Positions 1 through 38,797 of a stretch of DNA of 64,000 nt are shown one piece after another. The DNA is taken from positions 1-64,000 of the IMG/VR virus record IMGVR_UViG_3300045284_000065; one strand, written 5' to 3'. The first letter of the stretch is position 1; the number at the start of each line of letters is the position of its first letter. Origin of the DNA: a virus. The notes under the pieces were generated by a model that saw only the letters and a program-made list of their open reading frames with translations, had not been told where the DNA came from and made no database searches. Made by a program: the position numbers and the translations under genes.

Positions 1-269
1 CGCCCGTCACAAGGCGGGCCGCACATCGCGGCCCTCCGCGCCGCGGAGCACGCAGTGCTCCGCGGCGCGGAGGGCGGTCGAGCGCTCGCGCGGGGCGCGC
101 AGCGCCCGGGGCGCGGCCCGGGGCGCGCGCCGCGCGCGCCGCAGGCGGGCGCGCTGGGCGGGCGCACCGCATCGTCGGCGGTGCGCCGCAGCGCCCAGGT
201 GGGCGGCGGGGGGACACCACCGGCACCGCCTGACCACGCTACGCGCTGGGCGCGCAGCGCCCCGGCGCG
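1..269. other. extreme-GC non-coding region
   Basis: No convincing gene is seen here: the open frames that cross it are composed of Arg, Ala, Gly and Pro and look like by-products of base composition. The stretch is almost pure G and C and is full of palindromes, including a 45-base perfect hairpin (31-75), a 9-bp inverted repeat (161-169 with 179-187) and repeats of GCGCGCAGCGCCC. It lies downstream of the leftmost minus-strand operon. A terminator region, an origin or a packaging-related site are all possible; none is proven. Confidence 0.6.
31..75. repeat. perfect 21-bp inverted repeat (hairpin)
   Basis: Bases 31-51 and 55-75 are exact reverse complements separated by the triplet GCA. This is one of the longest perfect stems in the window. 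There is no T-run on either side, so a classical intrinsic terminator is not obvious, although actinobacterial terminators often lack one. Confidence 0.85.
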
Positions 270-587
270 TTAGATGGGGGCGGGCGCGTCGCCAGCCGTG
301 GCCCACAGGGGCGGCGAGGTGCTCACCATCGTCACCTCGCACTCGCAGGTGAGCAGGCCAGCCACGCGCCGCGCCTCCCACTCGGTGAACGGGCCAAGGA
401 TGGCCTGTGGTCGGTGGTCGCTCTCCACCGGACGACGCCACTCGTCAACGAACGCCGTGGCACTCCCGTCCCAGCACAGGATCACGTACGTGACGCGCGG
501 GGCCACGCGTGCGAGACGGTCGAGGCGTTCGATCGTCTCGGCGGCGTGCTCAAAGGGGTGCTGTTCCAAGGGGAAGTTGTCAGTCAT
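270..587 (-). CDS. hypothetical protein
   Basis: A 105-residue protein starting MTDNFPLEQ. The ATG at 587 overlaps the TGA of the upstream gene (ATGA), which fixes the start and suggests translational coupling; longer in-frame extensions read through unrelated low-complexity sequence. The C-terminal half contains GPFTEWEARRVAGLL followed by CEC. No function is recognised. It is the last gene of the left operon before the GC-rich region. Two copies of the octamer CTTGGAAC lie at its 5' end, one inside the gene (563-570) and one just upstream of the start (594-601). Confidence 0.7.
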   Translation of the reverse strand: MTDNFPLEQHPFEHAAETIERLDRLARVAPRVTYVILCWDGSATAFVDEWRRPVESDHRPQAILGPFTEWEARRVAGLLTCECEVTMVSTSPPLWATAGDAPAPI

Positions 588-3764: not shown

Positions 3765-4430
3765 TCACCACCCCCACCAGGGAGTGTTGCGCTCTTGGTC
3801 GCGCACACGGCGGCACTCGGACTGGCACCACGAACCCTGCCACTGGCTGCGCTGGCCGTAGCGACGGTGCAGCGTGGTCATCTCGGGCAGGTTGTCCGGG
3901 CTGATGTGCGGCCAAATGTCGTGCCAGACCACATGCCAGCGGGTTCCCTTGGGCCACTTGATCGTCATCGCGTCTCCCTGGTGGATGGTGACCCGGTCGC
4001 CGTACTCCTGCACGAACCAGGCACCGATGGTGTCGATGATGCGCTGGTCGCTCTCGACCACGTCAACGTGAGTGAGCACGTCCAGCATCGCGCCGACCAC
4101 GCAGCCCATGCCCAGCCCATTGACCAGTCCGGTGGCCTCGGGGAGGTTGGTGCCGTACAGGTCGGAGGCTGCGACGGCCAGGAGGTGATCGTGGCGCTCT
4201 GCGGTGGTGTCACTCATCCACAGTGTGTCATCCACCACCAGCTTGGCGTACTCACCCGGAGCGCAGCCACGGCCGTGCATGGCGTATTCCAGGCTCGCCA
4301 TGAAGGTGCCGAACGACTCGTTCGGCCCTCCCACCGTGAAGCGTGCGACGCGCACGCCGTTGGTGTCGAACTCCGGGCCTCGGTAGGCCAGGCGCTCCAT
4401 CCGGTTCATCGTTGGTGCGGTGGTGGTCAT
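3765..4430 (-). CDS. class I SAM-dependent methyltransferase-like protein
   Basis: A 221-residue protein. The central part shows the order of motifs of a Rossmann-fold methyltransferase or spermidine-synthase-like domain: glycine-rich loop NGLGMGCVVGAML (motif I), VDVVESD with the acidic residue at the end of strand 2, IHQGDAM (motif III) and WHVVWHDIW. The C-terminus, with LHRRYGQRSQWQGSWC, is similar in style to a group of actinophage proteins annotated as methyltransferases. The substrate cannot be deduced. It overlaps the upstream gene by ATGA and is followed by small genes. Fold assignment is moderately sure, activity is inferred. Confidence 0.55.
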   Translation of the reverse strand: MTTTAPTMNRMERLAYRGPEFDTNGVRVARFTVGGPNESFGTFMASLEYAMHGRGCAPGEYAKLVVDDTLWMSDTTAERHDHLLAVAASDLYGTNLPEATGLVNGLGMGCVVGAMLDVLTHVDVVESDQRIIDTIGAWFVQEYGDRVTIHQGDAMTIKWPKGTRWHVVWHDIWPHISPDNLPEMTTLHRRYGQRSQWQGSWCQSECRRVRDQERNTPWWGW

Positions 4431-4618
4431 GACGCCCCTCCTGAGGTGTCGGGTGTGTCATTCGACACAACATTGTCGGGGAGTGGGAACGTCCAGCCCT
4501 TGGCAGCGTGTGCATCGCTGCACACTCGGCAATCCGGGTTGCGGGGCTGTTTGAGGATGATGCCCGTGACGGGCAGGCCACACAGGGTGGCCTGCCCGTC
4601 GTTGGAGAAGTGGCTCAT
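4427..4618 (-). CDS. small Cys-containing hypothetical protein
   Basis: A 63-residue protein starting MSHFSNDGQATLCGLPVTG; a GTG one codon earlier is also possible. CGLP...NPDCRVC suggests a small zinc site. The last residues VSNDTPDTSGGAS come from copy 2 of the dispersed repeat (4440-4469). It is coupled to the Ku-like gene upstream (TGATG) and to the methyltransferase-like gene downstream (ATGA). Confidence 0.6.
   Translation of the reverse strand: MSHFSNDGQATLCGLPVTGIILKQPRNPDCRVCSDAHAAKGWTFPLPDNVVSNDTPDTSGGAS
4440..4469. repeat. dispersed operator-like repeat, copy 2
   Basis: CCTGAGGTGTCGGG followed by the inverted repeat TGTGTC-ATTC-GACACA. Confidence 0.7.
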
Positions 4619-5424
4619 CACGCCGCCTTGCCCTTGCCCTTCTTGGCAGCGTCGATGGAGGCCTGGAAGGCGTCCATCAGGTTGTCGATGGCAGCGGGTG
4701 CCTGGACGGTCGCCTTGGGAGCGCCACCGGCCTTGGAGTCCACGTACGCCTGCACCACCGGAGCGGTGTCGTCGGTGACGATCGGAGCATCGATGCCGAT
4801 CGCTTCGATCAGGCTGGTCGCCATGCCGACCTCGGTCTTGGTGAACCGGAAGTCGTCATCCAGCGGGATGGGCTTGCGGATGGCATCGGCGGTGAGCACC
4901 ATGAGCAGGTCACCCTCGTAGGTGAGGATGGCGTACCGGGCCGGTCCACGCATCGCCAGCTGCAGGAGAGCGCCCACTTTGAGCGACTTCATCCCGGCGA
5001 ACAGGAGCGCGAGCGCCTGGGTGGCGGGGCGGCTGGGCTTGCCCTTCTCGACCTTGGGGCGCACCTGGTACAGCTTCTCGGTGAGGTACTGACCGAAGTC
5101 CTTCACCGGCACGAAGCTGATGATTTCCGCCACGCCCTTGGGGGACGTGCAGGCGGCAATCTCGTCGTCGTCCAGTGCGACCCAGGAGCCGTTGGTGGCC
5201 TGCGCCATGCGGACCACGTCGGTCTGATGGACGACCTGCTCGGTGTCCTTGCGGATCGGCGCACGGCCGATCGGGACGTTGGGGTCGCCGTTGTAGAACT
5301 CCTTGCGGACGACTCGCGTCTCTTCGGTGGCCGTGTACACGCCCAGCTGGATGTTGAGCATCCCAGCGGAGACGGTGATGCTGGTGGTCGCCCGGGTGGG
5401 CATTCCAGCGAGGGAGGTGAACAT
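4618..5424 (-). CDS. Ku-like DNA end-binding protein
   Basis: A 268-residue protein whose layout follows bacterial Ku: an N-terminal GMLNIQLGVYTATEE (compare the G-L-V-N-V-P-V-K-V-Y-S-A-T-E region of bacterial Ku), a central WVALDDDEIAA followed by AEIISFVPVKDFGQYL and a Y-x-x-x-P stretch, then ALLFAGMKSLKVGALLQLAM RGPARYAILTYEGDLLM, matching the LLAKTL...LR...LAAL part of the Ku core ring. Length is close to host Ku. Ku rings bind double-strand ends and recruit LigD; mycobacteriophages Corndog and Omega carry Ku for genome circularisation. No ligase is seen in this window, so host LigD would be needed. Start chosen at ATG 5424 because AGAAGGA lies correctly upstream; an earlier in-frame start adds 13 unrelated residues. 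Identification is by eye. Confidence 0.7.
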   Translation of the reverse strand: MFTSLAGMPTRATTSITVSAGMLNIQLGVYTATEETRVVRKEFYNGDPNVPIGRAPIRKDTEQVVHQTDVVRMAQATNGSWVALDDDEIAACTSPKGVAEIISFVPVKDFGQYLTEKLYQVRPKVEKGKPSRPATQALALLFAGMKSLKVGALLQLAMRGPARYAILTYEGDLLMVLTADAIRKPIPLDDDFRFTKTEVGMATSLIEAIGIDAPIVTDDTAPVVQAYVDSKAGGAPKATVQAPAAIDNLMDAFQASIDAAKKGKGKAA

Positions 5425-5463
5425 TGGTTGGTCCTTCTTTCGGGTTGTCGGGGACATGCACAT

Positions 5464-5721
5464 TCAATCAGGTGTGGGCACGATTGGGCACTCTTCCCTG
5501 AGGTGTCCAGTGTGATACTCGTCACACACTCGGCACCGGTAGGCGACGAGCTTGCCGATGCGGTAGCGCATCTTGACGGTGCCAGCGTTGTAGGCATCGC
5601 AGAGAGCCTGCGCCGCCTCCTGGGTCAGGGGGCGCTTGGCGCGGCCACGGGTGGTGTAGTGGTCGCGTGGGGCGAACACCGGAGCCACCCGCCCTTCGCG
5701 GGTGGCTCCGATCATGGTCAC
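5464..5721 (-). CDS. small zinc-binding protein
   Basis: An 85-residue protein starting at GTG 5721, which overlaps the ATPase stop (GTGA). The N-terminal half is basic (RDHYTTRGRAKRPLT); the C-terminal half has CRVCDEYHTGHLREEC, a probable zinc site, preceded by a short helical segment that could contact nucleic acid. Part of that site is encoded by copy 3 of the dispersed repeat (5497-5528), here read in a different frame from the other copies. It lies between the MoxR-type ATPase and the Ku-like gene. Confidence 0.65.
   Translation of the reverse strand: MTMIGATREGRVAPVFAPRDHYTTRGRAKRPLTQEAAQALCDAYNAGTVKMRYRIGKLVAYRCRVCDEYHTGHLREECPIVPTPD
5474..5492 (-). promoter_or_regulatory. tandem GTGCCCA operator-like element upstream of Ku
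   Basis: Two GGGCAC units 10 bases apart (one helical turn) lie about 50 bases before the Ku start, inside the 3' end of the upstream gene. The same arrangement occurs at 3298-3316 and 41577-41594. No clear -10/-35 pair is seen at this copy. Confidence 0.45.
5497..5528. repeat. dispersed operator-like repeat, copy 3
   Basis: CCTGAGGTGTCCAG followed by the inverted repeat TGTGA-TACTCG-TCACA. Here the sequence codes HTGHLREE rather than DDTLDTSG, so it is shifted in frame relative to the others. Confidence 0.65.
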
Positions 5722-7040
5722 GGCGTGCCGCCCAGCGCCTGGGCCAACGGATCGTTGGGGTCGGGCATCGGTGCGAACTGCGCCGCCGCCGCCTCGGCGT
5801 TGTAGCGGGCCTGCTTCTCGTCTTCCAGCAGCGATGAGCGGATGGTCTGAGCGTTGAGAATCTCATCCGCCGTGATGCGGTGGCGCTCATCGAACATGCC
5901 CAGGAAGATTTCGAGCGCCATCTCCACGCCGTGGATGCCGATGTTGCGCTGGATGCGCTGCAGCAGGGCCGTGGACACCGGAATGTTGATCTTCCGGTTC
6001 TGATAGGCGGTACGGAACGCCTCGGCCAGGCGGTGCAGGTTCTCGTTCTTGATGAGCGTGTGCTCCACCACGGGGTCGTAGTCCCACAAGATGTGGTCGA
6101 AGCGCTGGTGAAGTGACTTGTTCATCTTCGCCATATCCTCGTATCCCTCGTTGTACGTGGTGATGACCCAGCAGTCTTCGTGCAGCCGCACGAACTCGGC
6201 CATGACCACGCCGCCCTTGACGATCGCCTTGCCACGGTTCGTGAACTCATGGCGGTGGTCGAGCACCGGGTTGAGGCTGATGGCGTAGCGGGGCGGGATG
6301 GCGTTGATCTCGTCCACGTAGAGGATGCCCCCGGTCTGCGCCCACATCTCGACAGTGCCGGGGAGGTGAACGATGCGATCGCGGCCCGTGCGCTCATCGA
6401 CCATCGACACCGGCTGACCGAAGAAGTCGTAGTCGGTGACACCGGCCGAACCGGACAGGGTGTAGATGGGCATCGGCTTGGGCAGTCCCCGTTCCTCGGA
6501 CAGCTTCTCGGCCAGCTTCTGGACGATGAGCGTCTTGCCCGACTGCGTCGGACCTTTGAGAGCGAACGAGACGGCGTAGCCCTCGTTCTCGCGGCGGTTC
6601 TCGTCACTGGCGTAGGCGAGCAGCGTCTCAATGTCCGACTTGCCGTTCTTCATGGTGCGGCTGATGTACCGGGCGACCTTGCTCCCACGGCCGCACAGCG
6701 GGCGCAGGTGGTCGAGGCGCTTGTCCATCGGGTCGGTGATCGGATCGGTCAGCGATGACTTCGCCACCTGCTGCATCAGCTGCTGGGCGGTCGATGCGTC
6801 GTCACCTGAGGTGTCGAGTGTGTCATCCGACACAGCCTCTTCGACAGGCTCGGGCAGGTCAGCCAGGACACGGGGCAGCACGTAGGCCACGCTGCCATCG
6901 AACTCGACAGTGATCTTGCGGCGGCGCGGATCGGAATCCGGGAACACCTTGCTGGTGATGACGGTGACGGTCTCCCCCATGAGGGGACCCGACACAACCC
7001 GGTACTTGAAACCGGGGAGGAGTGCTTCGGCTGCGGCCAT
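5718..7040 (-). CDS. MoxR-family AAA+ ATPase
   Basis: A 440-residue ATPase. Residues about 1-60 form a small beta-rich domain, then an acidic linker (with copy 4 of the dispersed repeat) and an AAA+ core: Walker A GPTQSGKT at about 162-169, Walker B ILYVDEIN near 240, sensor region WVITTYNEGY near 290 and a C-terminal lid. These features match the MoxR/CbbQ/RavA group, which work with VWA proteins as remodelling chaperones. The gene is divergent from a VWA protein gene (7181-9250), which strongly suggests they act together. ATG 7040 follows GAAAGGAAG at a good distance; the promoter is at 7083-7110. Target unknown. Confidence 0.85.
   Translation of the reverse strand: MAAAEALLPGFKYRVVSGPLMGETVTVITSKVFPDSDPRRRKITVEFDGSVAYVLPRVLADLPEPVEEAVSDDTLDTSGDDASTAQQLMQQVAKSSLTDPITDPMDKRLDHLRPLCGRGSKVARYISRTMKNGKSDIETLLAYASDENRRENEGYAVSFALKGPTQSGKTLIVQKLAEKLSEERGLPKPMPIYTLSGSAGVTDYDFFGQPVSMVDERTGRDRIVHLPGTVEMWAQTGGILYVDEINAIPPRYAISLNPVLDHRHEFTNRGKAIVKGGVVMAEFVRLHEDCWVITTYNEGYEDMAKMNKSLHQRFDHILWDYDPVVEHTLIKNENLHRLAEAFRTAYQNRKINIPVSTALLQRIQRNIGIHGVEMALEIFLGMFDERHRITADEILNAQTIRSSLLEDEKQARYNAEAAAAQFAPMPDPNDPLAQALGGTP
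6805..6834. repeat. dispersed operator-like repeat, copy 4
   Basis: CCTGAGGTGTCGAG followed by the inverted repeat TGTGTC-ATCC-GACACA, inside the ATPase gene. Confidence 0.7.
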
Positions 7041-7082: not shown

Positions 7083-7110
7083 ACATTACACCCGTGGAGG
7101 GCGGGATCAA
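7083..7110 (-). promoter_or_regulatory. promoter of the MoxR-type ATPase gene
   Basis: On the minus strand TTGATC (7105-7110) and TAATGT (7083-7088) are separated by 16 bases, giving a sigma-A-like promoter about 40 bases before the ATG. It lies in the 140-base divergent region between the ATPase and VWA genes. Confidence 0.6.
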
Positions 7111-7180: not shown

Positions 7181-9250
7181 GTGACCACACAACCCGCACC
7201 CAAGAAGACGCGCAAGCGCCTTCCACCAACCACCGAGATGGGCCGTCAGCTGATGAAGATGGGCCGCGAGAAGATGGCCGAAGAGGCCGCTCGCACCGCT
7301 GAGAGGATGCTCAACGAGCGCACCCAGCGCGAGGAAGCAGAGCTTGCTCTCCACAACCGCAGCCGCAACGTGTCCACCGCCGCCGCCGTGTCGCGAGGAC
7401 TGCTCGGCAGCATCGTTGGCTCACTCGCATCGGAGGACATAACCCCGTACATCGATGTGCAGCCGGTCGAACTGTTCAGCAGCCTGGAAGCGTGGACCGA
7501 CTTCCATCAGATCCACATTCGCTACCACCAGGACCCTGATCCCCGGATCATGGCGGCGGTGCTGCGTGGCCTGATGTACCACGAAGGTGGTCACATTCGG
7601 TGGACGATCCCGTTCGCTGAACTGCGAGAGATGGCGGGCGTATCTGCTCAGGGGACGGGCGAAGAGATGCGCCGCCTGCAGCGGGCCTGGAACGCTCTAG
7701 AGGATCAGCGCATGGAGACGGCAGTCGTCAGCGACTCACCGAACAAGGCTGGGTTCTTCGTCCCGATGGTGATGATGGAACTGCTCAACACGGTCGACAA
7801 GGCGACGATGAACTACCCGCTGCTGGTGTGGCGTCGGTACCTGCCGAAGCACATTCGCGACGCCTGCCGCGCCGCCTTCGTGGCGTTCCAGGGTGGCGAC
7901 GAGCACCTGACCCTGCAGATCGAACAGTGCGTGGACGACTACGTGAAGGCGACCACGGCCTGGCAGATGTGGGCAGCCGTGTGCTGGTTCGCTGAACTGA
8001 CCAACCTGCTGCAGATGACCCTGCCCCAGGCAGCCGAGACTCACTCCAAGCAGAAGTCAACGCGCCAGGGCGCTGATGGCGAGACGCAGCAGAGTGGTCC
8101 CGCCCCGGCCGAGAAGATGGAGATTCCCATCGACCCGACCCAGGACGCCAGCCCAGCCGGTGGTGGCGACGAGGACGAGCAGCCCGCCGAAGAGGCCGGT
8201 GGCGAGGCCGGTGGCGAGCAGGAAGGCGAAGGCGAGAGCGCCGCAGCGGGCGGCGAGGGTGGCGAGGAAGGCGACGGCGAGGGTGGTGACGAGGGTGCTG
8301 GCGACAGCCCCGACAGCGACGCCACCAGCGGCGAGAGCACGCAGGGAGCAGAGGGCAGCGGTGCCGGTGCTCGCAGCGAGGATGAGGCCAACCATGACCC
8401 GCTCTCCCAGGAGATGCTGAACGAGGCGATGGCCCAGGCAGAGGATGACCGGTACAACAGCCGCTCGCTGGATGCCGACGTGGACGCCTTCAACGACGCC
8501 CTGGATCGCCGCGGCTCCAAGCTGGGTGCGTACACGCTGCACCCCGAAGAGGACGTGGATCGCCTCATCGCCGCCGACGCGCTGGCTGATGACCTGGTCG
8601 GCTCGTTCAACCAGGCGACGATGGATCGCATCCCCTCCTGGGTCGAAGGACAGCGCTCGGGCCGACTGAACGTGGGCCGGTACATGACCCGCCAGCCGGG
8701 TGACATGGAGTACTTCACGCAGTGGATGGACGACGACGTGCCCGGCTACAACCTGGCCGTGTCGGTCCTGCTCGACTACAGCGGTTCCATGAGCCGCAGC
8801 GCCCAGGACTTGGCCCAGGCGGGCTACGCCGTCAAGACGGCCTGCCAGCGCCTCGACATTCCCTGCACCGTGGTGCTGTGGGATGACGACGCCAAGGTGC
8901 TGTGGGATGGCGAGGAAGAGGCCGACATGCTGCCCCGCATCGTCTGCACCGGCAACACCGACCCGACCTGGGCGCTCGCTGACCTGGACAACCAGCGGTT
9001 CAACAAGGTGCGCCACCTGGTGCTCATCATGACCGATGGCGTGTGGTCGGGCTATGGCGACCGGACCCTCGCCCCGTACTGCATCGACGGGCGCATGATG
9101 ATGGGCATCGGCTACGCCCTGGACGACGAGAAGAAGGCGCAGGGCCGTACGGCCAAGCTGATCGGCTACGGCTGCCCGGACGCCTTCCCGATCACCAACC
9201 TGCAGGAACTGCCCTGGCTCCTGGAGGAGTACCTCATCCGCATGGCCTGA
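7181..9250 (+). CDS. CobT/ViaA-like VWA-domain protein
   Basis: A 689-residue protein. The N-terminal ~300 residues are helical and basic at first; about 310-400 is a low-complexity Glu/Gly/Ala linker; the C-terminal ~190 residues are a von Willebrand factor A domain with the MIDAS motif DYSGS near 531-535, a threonine-containing loop (CTGNTDPTWAL) and MTDG near 619. This order, long N-domain, acidic linker and C-terminal VWA, is that of CobT and related partners of MoxR/CobS ATPases. It is transcribed away from the MoxR-type ATPase gene and very probably works with it. A GTG start at 7181 is chosen because of the promoter position. Confidence 0.8.
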   Translation: MTTQPAPKKTRKRLPPTTEMGRQLMKMGREKMAEEAARTAERMLNERTQREEAELALHNRSRNVSTAAAVSRGLLGSIVGSLASEDITPYIDVQPVELFSSLEAWTDFHQIHIRYHQDPDPRIMAAVLRGLMYHEGGHIRWTIPFAELREMAGVSAQGTGEEMRRLQRAWNALEDQRMETAVVSDSPNKAGFFVPMVMMELLNTVDKATMNYPLLVWRRYLPKHIRDACRAAFVAFQGGDEHLTLQIEQCVDDYVKATTAWQMWAAVCWFAELTNLLQMTLPQAAETHSKQKSTRQGADGETQQSGPAPAEKMEIPIDPTQDASPAGGGDEDEQPAEEAGGEAGGEQEGEGESAAAGGEGGEEGDGEGGDEGAGDSPDSDATSGESTQGAEGSGAGARSEDEANHDPLSQEMLNEAMAQAEDDRYNSRSLDADVDAFNDALDRRGSKLGAYTLHPEEDVDRLIAADALADDLVGSFNQATMDRIPSWVEGQRSGRLNVGRYMTRQPGDMEYFTQWMDDDVPGYNLAVSVLLDYSGSMSRSAQDLAQAGYAVKTACQRLDIPCTVVLWDDDAKVLWDGEEEADMLPRIVCTGNTDPTWALADLDNQRFNKVRHLVLIMTDGVWSGYGDRTLAPYCIDGRMMMGIGYALDDEKKAQGRTAKLIGYGCPDAFPITNLQELPWLLEEYLIRMA

Positions 9251-9853: not shown

Positions 9854-10768
9854 TTACCGGCCGAAGCCGCGTCCACCCGCATAGGTGCGGACAGGACCAA
9901 GCCTCGACGCACTCGGGCCGATGGCCGGAGGCATTGCTCCAAGGCCAGCGGATGTCGCCGGTCCCGTGCGATTCACGGTGCCACCTCCACCCCATCCGCC
10001 AGTTGTTCCAACGCCTCGACTCAGGCCGAAGGTGCGCTGTGGCTGGGCCGAAAGACTCGACGTAGAGAATCCACCGACCGAACTGCCCGGTGCTGTTCCA
10101 AGGGCCGGAATGGCGGTGCTCGGTGCAGTGGGTGATCCCGATGCCGAGGGGAGCGAGGGCATCTGCAGAGTGGAGCGCGCGGCGCTGTTGGGGGCGAACC
10201 CACCGGTCGGCGCAGCAGGCGTAGCTGCCGCCGCGGCCCGAGGTGCCGGTCGGTAGATCGTCATGTCCTTGGTGTTGTAGAGGCCGGTGGTACCCCGAGG
10301 CACGGCGGCGTTCTCGGGCGTGTCGGTGATCGTCCGCTGCGTCGCCGCCTTGTACTTGGGAGGGACGTAGGCCTTGTTCTTGATGACCGACCCTGTTCCA
10401 AGGGAGGGCTTCAACGTCTCCTTCGCCAGTTCGTACTTGGTGGTGGCGATAGGGGGAGCGCTCGGGCCTCCACCACCTCCACCGCCGCCGCCACCGCCGC
10501 CGCCGCCGCCGCCTCCACCGGAGCCACCACCGCCGCCGCCACCCGAGGAGCCACCGCCACCACCGGAGCTACCCGCCTTGAAGGGCAGCCCCTTGACGAC
10601 GAGCGGGTTGGTGGCGTGCGCCCCACCAGTCCCCCACACACTGCCGACCGTGAGCGTTCCCGTGGAGGGACCACCGCCCTTGGCCTTGTAGTCAGCCTTC
10701 TTGCTGCTGCTGGCAGTCTTCACCTTCGACTTCGCATTGGCGATGTAGGACTTTCCCCAAGAGGACAT
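9854..10768 (-). CDS. glycine-rich low-complexity protein
   Basis: A 304-residue protein. The N-terminus is basic (KSYIANAKSKVKTASSSKK); residues about 68-102 are a Gly/Ser tract with a long uninterrupted Gly run coded by a mix of GGC and GGT (about 10470-10560); the remainder is rich in Ala, Pro, Thr and Gly with few predicted structures. It may be a flexible structural or virion-associated protein. The AGGAG site and a CTTGGAAC octamer lie directly before ATG 10768. Confidence 0.6.
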   Translation of the reverse strand: MSSWGKSYIANAKSKVKTASSSKKADYKAKGGGPSTGTLTVGSVWGTGGAHATNPLVVKGLPFKAGSSGGGGGSSGGGGGGGSGGGGGGGGGGGGGGGGGGPSAPPIATTKYELAKETLKPSLGTGSVIKNKAYVPPKYKAATQRTITDTPENAAVPRGTTGLYNTKDMTIYRPAPRAAAAATPAAPTGGFAPNSAARSTLQMPSLPSASGSPTAPSTAIPALGTAPGSSVGGFSTSSLSAQPQRTFGLSRGVGTTGGWGGGGTVNRTGPATSAGLGAMPPAIGPSASRLGPVRTYAGGRGFGR

Positions 10769-12528: not shown

Positions 12529-13902
12529 TCAGTCGTCGGTCAGCTGCTCGATGATGTCGTTGGAGTCGATCGGCTCCTCCAACAGCAGAGCGTTCTGGCC
12601 CACCTGGGTGCCGAACAGCCGGGAGAGCACGCCGTTGGCCGCACGGGTGTCGCCCTTGGACTCCAAGGTCATCTTGATCGTGTCGCGGGTGTCTTCGATG
12701 GCGCGCCAGCGCTCGACCATGCTGAACAGGCGATCCATCTCCTTGCCCAGGTCCGGGTTGGGTTCACCCTGGATCTCCTCGGCAAAGCGGCCCATCAGCA
12801 CGCGCTGGGTCTGGATCTCGGCCACAGCCCGGAGCACGTTGACCAGTTGCACCTTGGTCTTGATCTCGACGGGGATCTGGTAGCTGCAGGCGGCTCCCGG
12901 GAAGTGGCTGGGACAGGTCAGAGCGAGGGCGCAGGTGTTGCACTGGCGCAGGCTCTCGGGCTTCACGTCGATCGTGTTGACCGTGTCCTCGAACTCGTTG
13001 CCGTCAGCGTCGTGGCCCGTTACGCCATGCCTGGTCATCCCGATCACTGGCAACACCAGGTGCCGGGTTTGGTCTATGTCGTTGGCAACTCCGTCAGGAG
13101 CCGTGACCGGGATAGGTCGCACTGACTGAGCACGCCCATTGGTAACTATCTGGTCAGGAACGACCGCCAGGGAGCGTGGAGAGGTGGTCAGGTGCTGTTC
13201 CAAGGCCTGCCATGAGCGCACCGCCAGAGTGACCGTTTCGGTCGGGTCATCCACAGCGATCTTGCCCATGTCGACGCCCATCGCTTCGATGGCCTCGGCA
13301 TAGCGGGCACGCTTGTTGACCTTGTCCTCGGCGTTGAGCCGCACCAGCCGGTTGGCTGCCCACACCTGCGTCTCGCCGTACTTCTGGACAGCCCACCAGG
13401 CGCTCGATACGAGGGTATCGAACCGCTCGATGCCCTTAGAGCGCCCGGTGAGAGCAGCCAGCTGACCGAGCCGCTTGATGCTGGCCCGGGCCTGTCGCAC
13501 AGCTACGGGGTTGTCAACCACGGAGTCGGGCAGTGTCACGCCATCGTAGTTCTCGGTGTAGTCACGGAGCACGGTGGGATCGGTGGCGTCCCAGATCGGC
13601 AGGAAGAGTAAGTCACTGTTAGCGAGCCAGGTCTGTTCATACCACGATATGGGTCCGGTGACGATCTCTGGTTGCACTTCAGCGCCCTTGAGGACCTCCA
13701 GCGCGGGGCCGACCGGGACCTGGGGGCCATCGGCGTAGAGCACCCACTCCAGCCCGCCGAGCCGCTCGCGCGTGGCCCAGTGCTCCAGGTCGTGCGTGGC
13801 GCGGACCAGGTTGGAGACGCTGACAGCGACGCGCTGGACGCCGCACTGGCGCAGCACGTTGAGATGCGAGGCCACCTCGGCCCCGGCGAAGAACAGCTGC
13901 AT
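12529..13902 (-). CDS. possible TGT/DpdA-like TIM-barrel protein
   Basis: A 457-residue protein. The start MQLFFAGAEVASHLNVLRQC and the following VSVSNL...WVLYADGP resemble the N-terminus of phage proteins annotated as queuine tRNA-ribosyltransferase-like (DpdA group, involved in 7-deazaguanine insertion into DNA or RNA): an FFAGxEVxSH start and an aspartate at the end of a strand. The second half has a four-Cys cluster CNTCALALTCPSHFPGAAC, compatible with the structural zinc of that family, and a helical C-terminus. Similarity is weak and no queuosine-precursor synthesis genes are seen nearby, so this could be an unrelated fold. Coupled to the upstream gene by TGATG. Confidence 0.4.
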   Translation of the reverse strand: MQLFFAGAEVASHLNVLRQCGVQRVAVSVSNLVRATHDLEHWATRERLGGLEWVLYADGPQVPVGPALEVLKGAEVQPEIVTGPISWYEQTWLANSDLLFLPIWDATDPTVLRDYTENYDGVTLPDSVVDNPVAVRQARASIKRLGQLAALTGRSKGIERFDTLVSSAWWAVQKYGETQVWAANRLVRLNAEDKVNKRARYAEAIEAMGVDMGKIAVDDPTETVTLAVRSWQALEQHLTTSPRSLAVVPDQIVTNGRAQSVRPIPVTAPDGVANDIDQTRHLVLPVIGMTRHGVTGHDADGNEFEDTVNTIDVKPESLRQCNTCALALTCPSHFPGAACSYQIPVEIKTKVQLVNVLRAVAEIQTQRVLMGRFAEEIQGEPNPDLGKEMDRLFSMVERWRAIEDTRDTIKMTLESKGDTRAANGVLSRLFGTQVGQNALLLEEPIDSNDIIEQLTDD

Positions 13903-32507: not shown

Positions 32508-33029
32508 TCAGTCGGCCCCGATCAGGGTGGGCTTCTTCGTGCGCGGCACACGGTTCTCGCTGATCCAGTAGGCCGTCATCAGGCAGGCCTCGGCGCGGCC
32601 ATCATGCTTGACCATCTTGAAGCTCTCGGACCACTCGGGCCAGCGCTCGGTCGCACGCTGACGCGAGAGGGCCTTGTCCTGGTTCAGGTGCATCTTGGTC
32701 TTCCAATGCCCCGCTGGCATGTGGACGATCGGGATGTCGAGAGCAGCGAGGACACCGAGGATCTTGCCGTAGCCGACGCCGTAGGTGAACACCCCGGCCA
32801 CGCCCTGCTTGGGCATCGAGTGGGCCTGCTCGACCACCGCTGTGTGGACCGGTCCATATCCCTGTATCAAGCGGGTGAGCATGTGAGCGTTCACCTCCTT
32901 GCCGATGCAGGGCATGTCCTCCAGGTCAGAGATGCTGGCGTCCTGTAACCGGAGGAACGCCAGCGCCCCCTTCTGACCGGGGTCGATGCCCAGGATGATG
33001 ACGGCGTTGCGACCCACGCTGGGACTCAT
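32508..33029 (-). CDS. RuvC-like Holliday junction resolvase
   Basis: A 173-residue RNase H-fold nuclease. Acidic residues are in the expected places: ILGIDPGQKGALAFL (Asp), VVEQAHS (Glu), and HDGRAEACLMTAYW (Asp). It would cut four-way junctions during recombination or before packaging. The ATG at 33029 overlaps the stop of the upstream gene. First gene on the left of the recombination/replication block. Confidence 0.8.
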   Translation of the reverse strand: MSPSVGRNAVIILGIDPGQKGALAFLRLQDASISDLEDMPCIGKEVNAHMLTRLIQGYGPVHTAVVEQAHSMPKQGVAGVFTYGVGYGKILGVLAALDIPIVHMPAGHWKTKMHLNQDKALSRQRATERWPEWSESFKMVKHDGRAEACLMTAYWISENRVPRTKKPTLIGAD

Positions 33030-33517
33030 GGAGACCAACGCATGTTCCTTCGCTCCACCGGGTCACGTCCGAGACGACGGCTCAACTCACGCGAGATCAG
33101 CTGGGCGCAGCGCTCGCAGTTGCCATAGACCACAGCCGTCAGCTTGCGCTTGGCGTAGGCGACGAGCAAGTCCTGCTTGGCCCGGTCGACCTGGGGATCC
33201 ATCGCCTGCTGTGCGCGCGAGAGGGTCACCTTGTCCTTGGCCGCACCCCAGTTGAGCACCATGTGCTCGGCCTCCAGCCGCTTGACGTTGGCCTCGGCCT
33301 TCTCCTCTTCGACCTCGGCCTCTGCGAACTGGTAGGCGGCGTAGTTCTGCCACTGCACGAACTGGCTGAACAGCGCCATCATCGTGGTGTCATCGACACC
33401 GGTCAGGTCCCCGGGGATCTCCGGGATATCAAACTGCGGGCGTCCGAAGAGAGGCTCGACGTTTGCCAGGCTTGGCCCGCTGGACCCGGGGGGTGGGGGT
33501 GGGCGCTTCGATCTCAT
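33026..33517 (-). CDS. coiled-coil hypothetical protein of recombination module
   Basis: A 163-residue protein starting MRSKRPPPPPG after GGAGGAGAACC. The centre is a long charged helix (AEAEVEEEKAEANVKRLEAE) and the C-terminus has VYGNCERCAQLISRELSRRL with a CxxC. Between RuvC and a Cas4-like nuclease, so an accessory role in DNA processing is likely. Its 5' 89 bases overlap the nuclease gene in another frame. Confidence 0.6.
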   Translation of the reverse strand: MRSKRPPPPPGSSGPSLANVEPLFGRPQFDIPEIPGDLTGVDDTTMMALFSQFVQWQNYAAYQFAEAEVEEEKAEANVKRLEAEHMVLNWGAAKDKVTLSRAQQAMDPQVDRAKQDLLVAYAKRKLTAVVYGNCERCAQLISRELSRRLGRDPVERRNMRWSP

Positions 33518-34424
33518 GGTTCTCCTCCAGGTCCCAACAGGTGCTCCGGTAGACGCATGAGGCACAGACCTTGTCGCCGGGACGGGTAGCCCATATCGGC
33601 CTATCCGGTGCGATCCCTGCTCGTACCCCTTGAGCTACATCCTTCGCCATCTCCAGTACAGGAGCGATGAATGACTTATTGTAGCTCACCACGAACTCCT
33701 TGGTCGCCTGGGTGAACTTGCTCTCGTACACGAAGATGATCTGCTCGTACGCAGGCCAGGCCATCCACAGGTACAGCTGACCCTGACGCATGTGGGAGCC
33801 GAAGGGATGTGATATCGAGAACCAGATGTCCTCGGCCGACTTGCCGTCGAGGTACTGCTGGTAGAGGCGGGGTGCCTCGAAGCGCAGGGTGCCCAGGCCG
33901 ATGGACTTGATCTCCACCAGCGCCCGCTCGGGGAGGTGGACGGCGGCGTCAGCGTGGCCCTCCACCATGAAGTTGTTGTGTCGGAGGGGGTACTCCTTGT
34001 ACTCCAGCCGCTCGCTCTGACAGAACTGGCAGGCCTGAGGAGACATGTCGTACCACTGGTGGCCGCACTCCCTGCAGTGCCACATGCCGACGAGGATGCC
34101 CATCTCCCAGAACCAGGTCTGCCACTTGGCGTGGATGGCGTGGCCCTCGGAGAAGACGTTGCTCATCCTGAAGCTGGGGTTGGCCTTGGACACCCGGCCG
34201 ATCGGTGCCCCGGTGATGGAGTAGTAGTCGTGCCGCCCGCACCAGTCGGTCTTCGCCATGTCGGAGGGGTGCATGTGCTTGGCCGAGTGGTCGTCGGGAC
34301 GCCCACCCGTCGCCGTCTTCATGACGTGGCGCTCCACCTGGGGCAGCAGCAGGCCACTGGTGGACTTGAACGTGCCCTTCAGTCGCTGGAGTGCGGAGTC
34401 ACGGAGAGGGCGGGGCAAAGTCAC
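33429..34424 (-). CDS. Cas4-family PD-(D/E)XK exonuclease
   Basis: A 331-residue nuclease. FSEGHAIHAKWQ, VEGHADAAVHLPERALVEIK and SHMRQGQLYLWM give the H, D, E-x-K and Q-x-x-x-Y motifs of RecB/Cas4 nucleases; C-terminal CASCVYRSTC and the internal CRECG...CQFCQ supply Cys ligands for an Fe-S cluster and a zinc site. It would resect DNA ends for recombination. GTG 34424 is used here; a later start such as MKTATGG is possible. Confidence 0.75.
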   Translation of the reverse strand: MTLPRPLRDSALQRLKGTFKSTSGLLLPQVERHVMKTATGGRPDDHSAKHMHPSDMAKTDWCGRHDYYSITGAPIGRVSKANPSFRMSNVFSEGHAIHAKWQTWFWEMGILVGMWHCRECGHQWYDMSPQACQFCQSERLEYKEYPLRHNNFMVEGHADAAVHLPERALVEIKSIGLGTLRFEAPRLYQQYLDGKSAEDIWFSISHPFGSHMRQGQLYLWMAWPAYEQIIFVYESKFTQATKEFVVSYNKSFIAPVLEMAKDVAQGVRAGIAPDRPIWATRPGDKVCASCVYRSTCWDLEENHEIEAPTPTPRVQRAKPGKRRASLRTPAV

Positions 34425-34925: not shown

Positions 34926-35064
34926 CTTCGCTCCAGTAGCCGTCACCTGGATCGGTGCCGTCGATACCGTGGACAGGGCAGGTCAGGTCAGCGATGCGGT
35001 AGCCGCCTGTGTCACCGAACCACGGACAGGTGCATCCTTCGGGACGGGGGTCATCATCCATCAT
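34912..35064 (-). CDS. small Cys/His protein (50 aa)
   Basis: The frame MMDDDPRPEGCTCPWFG continues with ADLTCPVHG and an acidic tail. The CxC...CxxH pattern suggests a tiny zinc-binding protein. ATG 35064 overlaps the RecA stop. Consistent with the tight operon. Confidence 0.6.
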   Translation of the reverse strand: MMDDDPRPEGCTCPWFGDTGGYRIADLTCPVHGIDGTDPGDGYWSEDDTP

Positions 35065-36119
35065 GTCTTCCTCACCTTCTTGGTCTTGGTGGGCAGGGGT
35101 GGGGGTGGAGGTGGTGCTTCACCGAGCACCAGCTTGCGGACCTCGGCTTCGATCTGGACCTGGAGGTCGATGTCCTCGCGCATGGAGGCCAGCACTGGCT
35201 CCTTGCCGTTCCACTTCTGCCCGCCGTAGTGGTACCAGGCACCCTGCCGGGTGATGATGTCGTAGGTCAGGGCGATGGCCCACAGCTGGGACACCACGTC
35301 GTAGTCACCCTTCTGGAAGGGTCCGTAGTTGGTGAAGTAGAAGGGCGTGACGCCCACCCGCATCGGCGGGGCCGTCTTGTTCTTCATCACCAGCGTCTTG
35401 ATGACGAGGCCGACCTTGTTCTTCCCGGCGTCCAGCAGCCACTCGTCACGCACCACCTCGACGCGGATGAAGTAGCTGAAGTTCTTGCCCTTGCCGCCCG
35501 GGGTGGTGCGAGGGTCGCCGTACATCACACCGATGCGGTCACGCCACTGGTTGATGATGAGGCAGAGGCAGTCACGCTCATCCACGGTGCGGCGCTGGGC
35601 CTTGGGTGACTTCCGCATCAGCTTGTTGGTGAGACGGGCACCCAGGCCTGGCTGCCAGTCGGTCATCTCACCCTCGCCCTCACCGCTGGGGATGAGGGCC
35701 GGGTAGGAGTCCAGCACGATGGCGTCCACCGACTGGCTGTCGAGAGCGTCCAGCATGATGGTGTAGGCCTCCTCCATCACGTTGGTCAGGGCCAGCACCA
35801 CACGGGTGGTGTCGATGCCAAGCTCCTCGGCCCACTCCTTGTTGAAGTCCTCCGATGCCACCCACAGCACCTGGTAGTCCGGGTTCGCCATCATGTTGGC
35901 GGCGATGGTCTTCAGTGCCATGACCGTCTTGCCGTGGGACTCCAGGCCGATGATCTCGTTCCAAACGTTCAGCGGCCAGCCCCCACCGAGGGCCAGGTCG
36001 AACGAGAGCGAGCCAGTGGTGGCTCGGCGGAAGGTCGGGATCTCGCTGGCGTACACCAGCACCTCGGCCTTCATCTCCTTGTTGATCTGAGCGATCAGTG
36101 CGTCCACGGCGGTGGTCAT
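35061..36119 (-). CDS. RecA-like recombinase
   Basis: A 352-residue recombinase: N-terminal helix, TGSLSFDLALGGGWP, Walker A GLESHGKT near 58-65, Walker B-like AIVLDSYPALIP, and the loop region MYGDPRTTPGGKGKNFSYF typical of RecA L2. The C-terminus is a Pro/Lys-rich tail (PPPPPPLPTKTKKVRK). It would catalyse strand exchange with the Cas4-like and RuvC-like enzymes encoded in the same operon. Its promoter and a hairpin leader lie at 36138-36221. Confidence 0.9.
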   Translation of the reverse strand: MTTAVDALIAQINKEMKAEVLVYASEIPTFRRATTGSLSFDLALGGGWPLNVWNEIIGLESHGKTVMALKTIAANMMANPDYQVLWVASEDFNKEWAEELGIDTTRVVLALTNVMEEAYTIMLDALDSQSVDAIVLDSYPALIPSGEGEGEMTDWQPGLGARLTNKLMRKSPKAQRRTVDERDCLCLIINQWRDRIGVMYGDPRTTPGGKGKNFSYFIRVEVVRDEWLLDAGKNKVGLVIKTLVMKNKTAPPMRVGVTPFYFTNYGPFQKGDYDVVSQLWAIALTYDIITRQGAWYHYGGQKWNGKEPVLASMREDIDLQVQIEAEVRKLVLGEAPPPPPPLPTKTKKVRKT

Positions 36120-36805: not shown

Positions 36806-38797
36806 TCACTTCTTCTTCGCTGCCGCCCAGGAGTACCCGATCTTGGAAGACACGATAAGCGGGATCTCCCCGAGGATGGGGGACCCGGAGAGGTCGGTGA
36901 CGCCAGTCATGGTGTCGGACACCAGCGCGAGCACCTCTTCAGCGTAGGCCTCCTCGCAGCGCACGATGATCTCGTCGTGGACCTGAAGCACCATCTGCGC
37001 TGGATATGCCGATATGCGTTGGTACAGGTTGAGCATGGCGATCTTCGTGATGTAGCTGGCGAAGCCCTGGACCAAGGCGTTGATGGCCTGGCGCTCGGCC
37101 CGCCAGCGCATCCACTCCTCCTCCTTGTGGTACTTCATCAGGTCCGGGAGACGACGGAGCCTGCCGATGGGAGGGATGATGATCGTCGGCGGGTCAGTCG
37201 AGGGGCTGGCCGGGTCGCACCGGTCCCGGGCCTCGGCCAGCACCCGCTTCTTCCAGGGTTCAAGCCCGCCGAACATCTCGTAGTAACCATCGATGAGCTT
37301 CTGCGCCCGACGCTTGGAGCACTTGGCTACGTATGCAATCTTGTTCACCCCAGCGCCGTAGATGATGGCGAAGTTCTGCGTCTTGCCGACCGCCCGCTGC
37401 TCCTCGGTGACCTTGTCGAGGGGGATGTTCCACATGGCTGCCGCCGCCTGGCGGTGGACATCGTCACCACGCTTGAACACGGTCAGCATGTTGGGGTCGC
37501 CCGACTCGTAGCCAGCACACCGCAACTCCACCTGGTCGTAGTCGGCCACGATGAGGACGTGGCCTGGCCCAGCGATGAACAGTTCACGAATGACCGAGGA
37601 CTTGGGGATCTGGTGGAGGTTGGGCTTCTCCGCTGAGAACCTGCCGGTGACGGTGCCGTGCTGCTTGAAGCTGGTGTGCAGCCGGGGTAGGCCGGAGTCG
37701 CGCTTGCTCAGGTACTTGTCGAAGCCAACGACGAAGGTGCCGCGCAGCTTCTCGTAGGCCGACCACTCCAGGAACAGGCGGGCTACCTCGTTGCTGCTGG
37801 CGTAGCGCTCCAGGAGCGCCTTGTTCAGCTGGGCGGCGTCGGTCTTGGCCGTGCGGTTGAGGGGGGTGAGGCCCTGGGGCTTCAGTGGGTGGCCGCTGGT
37901 GCCGACTGGTATCTCCTTGCCCTTCTCCACCTCACCGAACAGCACGTAGCGCTTGACCGAGAGGTTCGACATCGGGATCTCGTCCCCGACCAACTGGCCC
38001 ACGTCCTTCTCGATCTGAGCGATGGAGGTGGTCAACTCCTCGCCCACCTTCTCCATCGCTGACAGGTCGATGGGGAACCCGGCCGACTCCATGTCCATGA
38101 GCACCGGATACATGCTCATCTCGAAGTCGTAGACGGCCTTCAGTCCCCGCTTGATGAGCTTGGGCCACAGCCTCTTGTAGAGGTACCGGGTGTAGACGAG
38201 GTCCTTGTTGAGGTACGAGGCGATCTCGTCCAGCCCGAAGTTCTCGACGCCCTTGGTCCCGAGCGAGGGGTACCACTTCTTGCGGTCGGCCGGTCGGAAC
38301 CAGTCGATCGACAACTCCTTCAACCCGTACATGGGGAGTGACTCATCGATGACGTGCTGCAGGACGAGGGTGTCGTGGTAGGGGCCGGGTGGGATCCGAC
38401 CGCCGAAGTACTTGGCGATGGTCTGCAGGTCGAACTTCAGATGGTGGTTGAGCTTGGCCCGGTCGCTGAACAGCAGCGGTTCGATCAACTCGGCCACCTG
38501 GTAGGGGTACAGCTGGCGCGGCGGCGGGGCGTAGGTCGCTGGCACCAGGTGCTCCACCATCCGCATCGACGGCTTGCCGGTAGGAGTCAGGCCGCGCTCG
38601 TCGCTCCAGAGCAACGAGGCTGGCGTCTTCTCCTTCTTCTGCACCGTGAGCCGGTGCCCCTTGGGGTGGCCGCAGGGGATCAGGAAGGTGTGGGCCGTGC
38701 AACCGAGGCCGCACCACAGCATCTCGTTGGTCTGCGTGTCGAGTCCGTTCGTCTCCAGGTCGATGACGAACGTGTCCTCACGGAGAAGCAGGTCCAC
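36806..38797 (-). CDS. DNA polymerase I (family A) with 3'-5' exonuclease
   Basis: A 663-residue replicative polymerase. The exonuclease domain begins with DLETNGLD near 13; a second exo motif lies in LNHHLKFDLQTIAKYF. The polymerase domain shows motif A (VADYDQVELR near 417), motif B (RAVGKTQNFAIIYG near 465) and motif C (LQVHDEI near 604). There is no 5'-3' exonuclease domain, as in most phage family A polymerases. GTG 38797. The nearby helicase, primase and SSB-like genes complete the replisome. Confidence 0.92.
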   Translation of the reverse strand: MDLLLREDTFVIDLETNGLDTQTNEMLWCGLGCTAHTFLIPCGHPKGHRLTVQKKEKTPASLLWSDERGLTPTGKPSMRMVEHLVPATYAPPPRQLYPYQVAELIEPLLFSDRAKLNHHLKFDLQTIAKYFGGRIPPGPYHDTLVLQHVIDESLPMYGLKELSIDWFRPADRKKWYPSLGTKGVENFGLDEIASYLNKDLVYTRYLYKRLWPKLIKRGLKAVYDFEMSMYPVLMDMESAGFPIDLSAMEKVGEELTTSIAQIEKDVGQLVGDEIPMSNLSVKRYVLFGEVEKGKEIPVGTSGHPLKPQGLTPLNRTAKTDAAQLNKALLERYASSNEVARLFLEWSAYEKLRGTFVVGFDKYLSKRDSGLPRLHTSFKQHGTVTGRFSAEKPNLHQIPKSSVIRELFIAGPGHVLIVADYDQVELRCAGYESGDPNMLTVFKRGDDVHRQAAAAMWNIPLDKVTEEQRAVGKTQNFAIIYGAGVNKIAYVAKCSKRRAQKLIDGYYEMFGGLEPWKKRVLAEARDRCDPASPSTDPPTIIIPPIGRLRRLPDLMKYHKEEEWMRWRAERQAINALVQGFASYITKIAMLNLYQRISAYPAQMVLQVHDEIIVRCEEAYAEEVLALVSDTMTGVTDLSGSPILGEIPLIVSSKIGYSWAAAKKK
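37004..37015. repeat. ATATNNNNATAT motif (site 5)
   Basis: ATATGCCGATAT inside the polymerase gene, near motif C. Confidence 0.75.

Follow-up and report, generated by a model that had tools for sequence, protein, structure and literature searches.

A divergent Ku protein encoded beside a MoxR-type ATPase in uncultured phages

The ku locus and the identity of its product

We analyzed a 64,000-nucleotide stretch of viral DNA (positions 1 to 64,000 of IMG/VR record IMGVR_UViG_3300045284_000065, hereafter the window), which belongs to a metagenomic record of 91,554 bp. The ku gene lies on the minus strand, downstream of the genes for a small Cys/His protein and a MoxR-type AAA+ ATPase, and a gene for a vWA protein diverges from the ATPase gene. 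Copies of a 30-nt operator-like repeat occur in and around these genes (Table 1).

Table 1 Features of the window, with positions counted from its first nucleotide
Feature	Position	Strand	Description
GC-rich stretch	55–270		Left record end
Repeat copy	2322–2351	−	Inside gene 2135–2905; 1 mismatch
Repeat copy	3324	−	7 mismatches
Methyltransferase-like gene	3765–4430	−	PHROG 15480; downstream of ku
Repeat copy	4440–4469	−	Abuts ribosome-binding site of the methyltransferase-like gene; 0 mismatches
ku	4618–5424	−	Divergent phage Ku, 268 aa; beta-barrel core at about residues 13–190; C-terminal helix 249–267
Small Cys/His protein	5464–5721 (or 5464–5688)	−	74–85 aa; CRVC-DEYH-GH; between AAA and ku; PHROG 14788, E 2e-4
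Operator-like element TGTGACGAGTATCACACTGGACACCTCAGG	5497–5526	−	73 bases upstream of ku start; 5 mismatches to 30-nt consensus
MoxR/CbbQ/NorQ-type AAA+ ATPase	5718–7040	−	Upstream of ku, same strand; PF07728, E 5e-11; CbbQ/NorQ PDB profile matches
Repeat copy	6805–6834	−	Within AAA linker; 0 mismatches
vWA protein	7181–9250	+	Divergent from AAA; HEGGH at residues 134–138, then invariant WNALEDQR; MIDAS DYSGS at 532–536
Glycine-run protein	9854–10768	−	
PHROG 887-matching protein	12529–13902	−	
Holliday resolvase	32508–33038	−	
Cas4-like exonuclease	33429–34418	−	
RecA	35061–36119	−	
Family A DNA polymerase	36806–38797	−	

The ku frame comprises 268 codons and fills its interval exactly. A longer version of 281 aa would start at 5463, and ATG5424 was preferred because it has an AGAAGGA ribosome-binding site and because the same start is used in the relative L002. 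The Pfam Ku profile (PF02735, cut-off 25) scored 53.3 bits against the complete record and 52.3 bits (E 8e-14), about double the cut-off, against the 268-aa protein. PHROG 4873 ('Ku-like DNA end binding') aligned to residues 24–279 of the 281-aa frame, and phmmer comparison with solved structures returned Ku only, namely MtbKu (9i91/8v53, over residues 9–267; E 7.9e-10 for 9i91) and BsuKu, with E improving to 2e-14 when a three-sequence profile was used. The bacterial-Ku equivalog TIGR02772 matched over nearly the full length at 78.6 bits, under its cut-off of 150. The PF02735, PHROG and PDB matches make the Ku domain certain, while the TIGR02772 score leaves the standard bacterial equivalog label unwarranted. 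At the level of sequence, the product is confirmed as a genuine, well supported and unusually divergent phage Ku.

Structures were predicted with AF2 from two alignments. Using 11 sequences, all from viral relatives, pLDDT was 66 and TM ~0.4, and with 45 sequences including bacterial Ku the monomer reached pLDDT 79 and pTM 0.65. With the latter model as Foldseek query, each of the best 50 PDB matches was a Ku chain or complex at probability 1.00. Apo-MtbKu and the Ku–DNA complex of B. subtilis topped the list, the lowest E being 4e-14, and model and sequence comparison together show a predicted Ku fold. The monomer aligned to these structures with TM only ~0.5 and a large rmsd, the latter probably reflecting uncertain placement of the arm in the monomer model. 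A preliminary description of the locus had proposed a phage Ku-like end-binding protein in which the motif order of bacterial Ku is followed over 268 residues, and had suggested comparison with PF02735 and with AlphaFold models as checks. Both agree with it, the profile by its score and the monomer model at fold level, and the PF02735, PHROG 4873 and phmmer matches cover essentially the full length.

Relatives, DNA contacts and C-terminus

The nearest Ku sequences came from uncultured viral contigs (81% identity in L002, 70% in L003 and 51–62% in others), and relatives with 51–81% identity aligned along their full length. No match was found in a DNA-level search of phages, nor any cellular or prophage relative in a search of GTDB genome contigs with the clade-alignment profile. 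In an annotated phage collection, the window protein retrieved WXIN only, at 26% identity, and WXIN Ku or bacterial Ku used as query retrieved 82 records, all except one of them named Mycobacterium phages; among isolated phages in this collection, Ku is almost confined to mycobacteriophages. A published Ku survey also includes Streptomyces phage BillNye (PMC11936186). In Mycobacterium phage Nebkiss (MK016501.1, 75471–75662), ~66 residues matched a bacterial Ku query, which suggests a truncated phage Ku.

When bacterial Ku were included in the trees, the protein of the window fell into a fully supported clade, both with eight members (support 100/100, stem 4.19 changes per site) and with 13, comprising the window and 12 viral Ku (100/100, stem 2.17 changes per site). 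The Ku of cluster J phages (WXIN, LittleE) grouped with mycobacterial Ku, and the window Ku fell outside this mycobacteriophage group. Judged by sequence, it represents a separate deep clade and is no simple relative of the Omega and Corndog Ku. Those proteins (clusters J and O; PHROG 4873) resemble it in being single-domain phage Ku of ~270–290 aa; they are implicated in end joining, and no LigD is annotated beside them in the regions viewed. Cluster J Ku, which groups with mycobacterial host Ku, bears an Lsr2-like tail (PMC3706429), whereas the window Ku has no such tail and shares ~26% identity with WXIN Ku. Gene neighbors also differ, with an FtsK-like gene near cluster J Ku and a ParB-like gene near cluster O Ku. 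Phage Ku as such is already known from Omega and Corndog; what is new is a deeply divergent clade with a conserved gene context, for which we found no report in the literature searched. Uncultured phages therefore carry another lineage of phage Ku, the second, that is deeply separated from the first.

Residues that contact DNA in mycobacterial Ku were mapped through an alignment of eight clade members (A5), with R88 left unmapped. Y21 and R62, which hydrogen-bond DNA, and Q33, R43, Y44, R46 and R58, which also contact it (PMC12784962), fared differently, as two of the seven were kept: the window Ku has Y30 in place of Y21 and R72 in place of R62, both retained in the eight members apart from a Phe at position 30 in one, and the other five are all replaced in the clade. 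R40, R54 and R58 (window numbering) are invariant in the clade, and K41 and K59 almost so. The N-terminal hairpin G-L-V-N, which is required for synapsis in mycobacterial Ku, is retained as G-M-L-N in the window and as G-M/L-L/I/V-N/x across the clade. The C-terminal helix contains a bacterial-type minimal motif (D-N-L-M-D-A-F-Q-A-S-I; D-L-M-x-x-L-x-A-S-I as the clade type), and in B. subtilis and P. aeruginosa such a minimal C-terminus is enough to bind LigD (PMC9638933). Most clade members have no long basic (lysine) tail. Compared with bacterial Ku (MtbKu 9i91/9ig8, BsuKu 9vnq), the window protein shares domain, fold class, hairpin and minimal C-terminal motif, but has lost the C-x2-C pair that is common in bacterial Ku, most of the basic contacts in the pore and three of the residues in HTLLWPDEIR.

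The long stem branch and the loss of several DNA-contact residues could mean that this Ku has decayed, or has been put to another use, and has given up DNA binding. We consider this very unlikely, since ku has evolved under purifying selection (dN/dS ~0.27 against L002; dN 0.116, dS 0.436) and conservation extends over the full length, including the Arg/Lys positions and the C-terminal motif.

Gene neighborhood and the 30-nt repeat

The MoxR-type ATPase beside ku had been named correctly in the preliminary description, and profile matches place it with CbbQ/NorQ. For the divergent vWA gene, the start at 7181 was used, and the list of open reading frames begins at 7094. PHROG labels assign the ATPase to 'porphyrin' and the vWA protein to 'cobalamin' biosynthesis, the latter with a CobT-like match to PHROG 5298, and these labels are misleading: the vWA protein has HEGGH, the invariant WNALEDQR and the DYSGS MIDAS. 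The Pfam VWA profile matched weakly, in one vWA member, and HExxH was found in all other vWA partners checked. The two genes qualify as a MoxR/metallopeptidase–vWA pair, in that a MoxR-clade ATPase adjoins a vWA protein with HExxH and MIDAS. The same combination, a MoxR-type ATPase adjoining a vWA protein whose N-terminal domain bears HExxH, was described in jumbo phages by Iyer et al. 2021 (PMC7824862), who proposed a role in virion assembly for it and who, in the part consulted, report no Ku with the pair. The window pair differs in that its genes are divergent, Ku follows the ATPase, and the genomes are ~90–118 kb.

A scan with an alignment of the ATPase identified 24 viral loci carrying a related MoxR-type gene. 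Half of these loci (12; 11 distinct, as L139 and L140 look like one phage) encode Ku, always downstream of the ATPase and with the vWA gene divergent, as in the window; in L127, Ku is 1.7 kb from the ATPase. L010 is an additional Ku-bearing contig that starts within the ATPase gene. The other 12 loci have no Ku, and none was found on the rest of their contigs, some of which exceed 90 kb. The pair is likewise present without Ku in Gordonia and Brevibacterium phages. On the ATPase tree, Ku presence required 2 changes compared to 9.3 with shuffled labels, and the pairing persisted down to <40% ATPase identity. By sequence comparison, the conserved neighbors of Ku are thus the MoxR ATPase and the divergent HExxH–vWA gene, rather than the small zinc protein, and the synteny is a conserved linkage that is possibly functional, with shared ancestry explaining part of it.

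We weighed two readings of this linkage. The adjacency could be hitch-hiking, in which an ancestral phage gene order was preserved with the region and Ku and the ATPase have no functional link. A core order of ATPase, vWA and flanking genes is common across these phages, which indicates that order is partly ancestry, yet gene content beyond Ku changes from one of these phages to the next, with no conservation past L002 among mapped loci, while the ATPase and Ku stay together even at low identity. We regard hitch-hiking as quite possible, if somewhat short of probable. Alternatively, Ku could be the third component of a MoxR/metallopeptidase–vWA machine, with the pair putting Ku rings onto phage DNA, taking them off or degrading them, for example by removing rings trapped on circularized or packaging-ready genomes. 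This would fit the constant arrangement in the window and the 12 loci (11 distinct), the derivation of their Ku from a single clade, and the clustering of Ku on the ATPase tree. It is nonetheless unlikely, as the pair occurs without Ku in half of the ATPase loci and in Gordonia and Brevibacterium phages, and in jumbo phages a pair of this type is proposed to serve virion assembly (PMC7824862). Because the pair is present in viral contigs without Ku, its function cannot in general depend on Ku. The more specific version, a three-part machine in which a dedicated MoxR AAA+ ATPase and a metallopeptidase–vWA adaptor would place a phage-specific Ku ring on viral DNA ends, release it or remove it by proteolysis, is more doubtful still. 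AAA-driven removal of Ku exists in eukaryotes, and such a machine, if true, would be its bacterial-virus counterpart.

The zinc-protein neighbor of the preliminary description is present but is not a conserved partner. Among mapped loci, it lies between the ATPase and ku in this phage only, and a homologue in L011 is located elsewhere, away from that interval, so we rejected it as part of the module.

The operator-like element claimed for ku proved to be real as an element, though not as ku's own. The 30-nt consensus contains a TGTGTC/GACACA inverted repeat, and all copies in the window are on the minus strand. No match with up to 7 mismatches occurred in 10 mononucleotide shuffles. L002 has five copies (8610, 9900, 10956, 11569 and 13117), one of them upstream of its ku, and repeats of similar strength were absent from the more distant relatives scanned. 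The ku-proximal copy in the window falls inside the small Cys/His gene; in L002, a near-identical sequence lies between the ATPase gene and ku with no called gene overlapping it, which argues for a role at the DNA level. The repeat often reads in frame as S-D-D-T-x-D-T-S-G, and the ku-proximal copy is read in another frame, so that the repeat looks like a DNA element. On sequence grounds, it is common to several neighboring genes and confined to the window phage and its nearest relative. Given its several neighboring sites and its absence at similar strength from the distant relatives scanned, we rejected it both as Ku-specific and as a general regulator of the group. The methyltransferase-like protein, whose gene is abutted by one copy, has an 83% identical counterpart in L002 and is absent from the other mapped relatives.

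Possible roles at phage DNA ends

The phage encodes a contractile tail (tail sheath, baseplate), portal, capsid and endolysin, together with RecA, a family A polymerase, primase, DnaB-type and SNF2-type helicases, Holliday resolvase and a Cas4-like exonuclease; these stand alongside Ku with no ligase. Its record is incomplete, as it ends near the portal gene. The relative G006 (118,102 bp; loci L023–L028) carries a terminase and the same core, has a 116-bp terminal overlap and is probably a complete circularized assembly. Its junction was rejected as a genome end since the overlap lies within a gene that runs unbroken in G007, and no fixed physical ends were found through this closure. The ATP ligase profile (PF01068) was absent from all records searched, and those for NAD ligase (PF01653) and the LigD polymerase (PF21686) from nine records including G006. 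The two-component NHEJ arrangement, with ligase encoded together with Ku, was accordingly not seen in the records searched, and as even the complete-looking 118-kb G006 yielded no ligase, ligation must come from the host. That host is likely an actinobacterium, given the homologues of these phage sequences in Gordonia, Brevibacterium and Streptomyces phages. The carrier phage is high-GC. Streptomyces phage BRock, with a terminase 48% identical to that of G006, had no detectable Ku or ATPase/vWA genes.

The likeliest role of the protein is to bind the ends of phage DNA, bridge them and protect them so that the host can ligate them. It is probable that the Ku-fold protein binds double-stranded phage ends, that a homodimer bridges or protects them and that a host ligase seals them. 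A Ku homodimer would thread onto linear phage ends, whether of the incoming genome or of cleaved or replicating DNA, bridge them and shield them from nucleases, and LigD or another host ligase would then seal them. With less confidence, the synteny suggests that the MoxR/metallopeptidase–vWA pair may remodel the end complex or be active at the same stage of infection. Corndog appears to recircularize by NHEJ with its phage Ku (PMC4351075), and Omega and Corndog employ host LigD (PMC7719229). Weighing against this role are the TIGR02772 score below cut-off, the five replaced mycobacterial contacts (Q33, R43, Y44, R46, R58), the weak superposition of the monomer on Ku structures (TM only ~0.5, large rmsd), and the phage's RecA, Holliday resolvase and Cas4-like exonuclease, through which circularization could use homologous recombination.

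As recombination genes are encoded by the phage itself, the chief competing reading is that ends are capped and not ligated. Ku would then be mainly an anti-nuclease factor similar to Mu Gam, blocking host end-processing nucleases, with NHEJ ligation unneeded. The lack of a detected phage ligase, the possibility of joining by recombination through RecA, resolvase and exonuclease, and remodeled pore contacts that need not support handover to LigD are all consistent with this, but the clade keeps the minimal C-terminal motif that recruits LigD in bacteria and would be unneeded for pure capping, and we consider the reading fairly unlikely. Gam itself, an end-binding protein of a different family (PF07352), has been shown to promote end joining with a host ligase (cited in PMC8136500), a Ku-like case that can also work with such a ligase. 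A search of these phages for Gam gave no match, and its control gave none either.

The clade offers a natural Ku whose DNA pore is remodeled but whose LigD-type C-terminus is kept, together with an ATPase/peptidase pair in synteny. It makes testable both end joining by Ku-only phages without a ligase and the removal of Ku rings from DNA in bacteria.

Three further features of the window were noted. The stretch at the left record end is very GC-rich, with imperfect repeats of GCGCGGGGCGCGCAGCGCCC. The glycine-run protein beyond the vWA gene has a long run of glycines, and its L002 counterpart is likewise of low complexity. The PHROG 887-matching protein is conserved; its match ('queuine tRNA-ribosyltransferase') covers the C-terminal third and takes in a conserved Cys cluster, and most relatives keep this protein at 44–93% identity.
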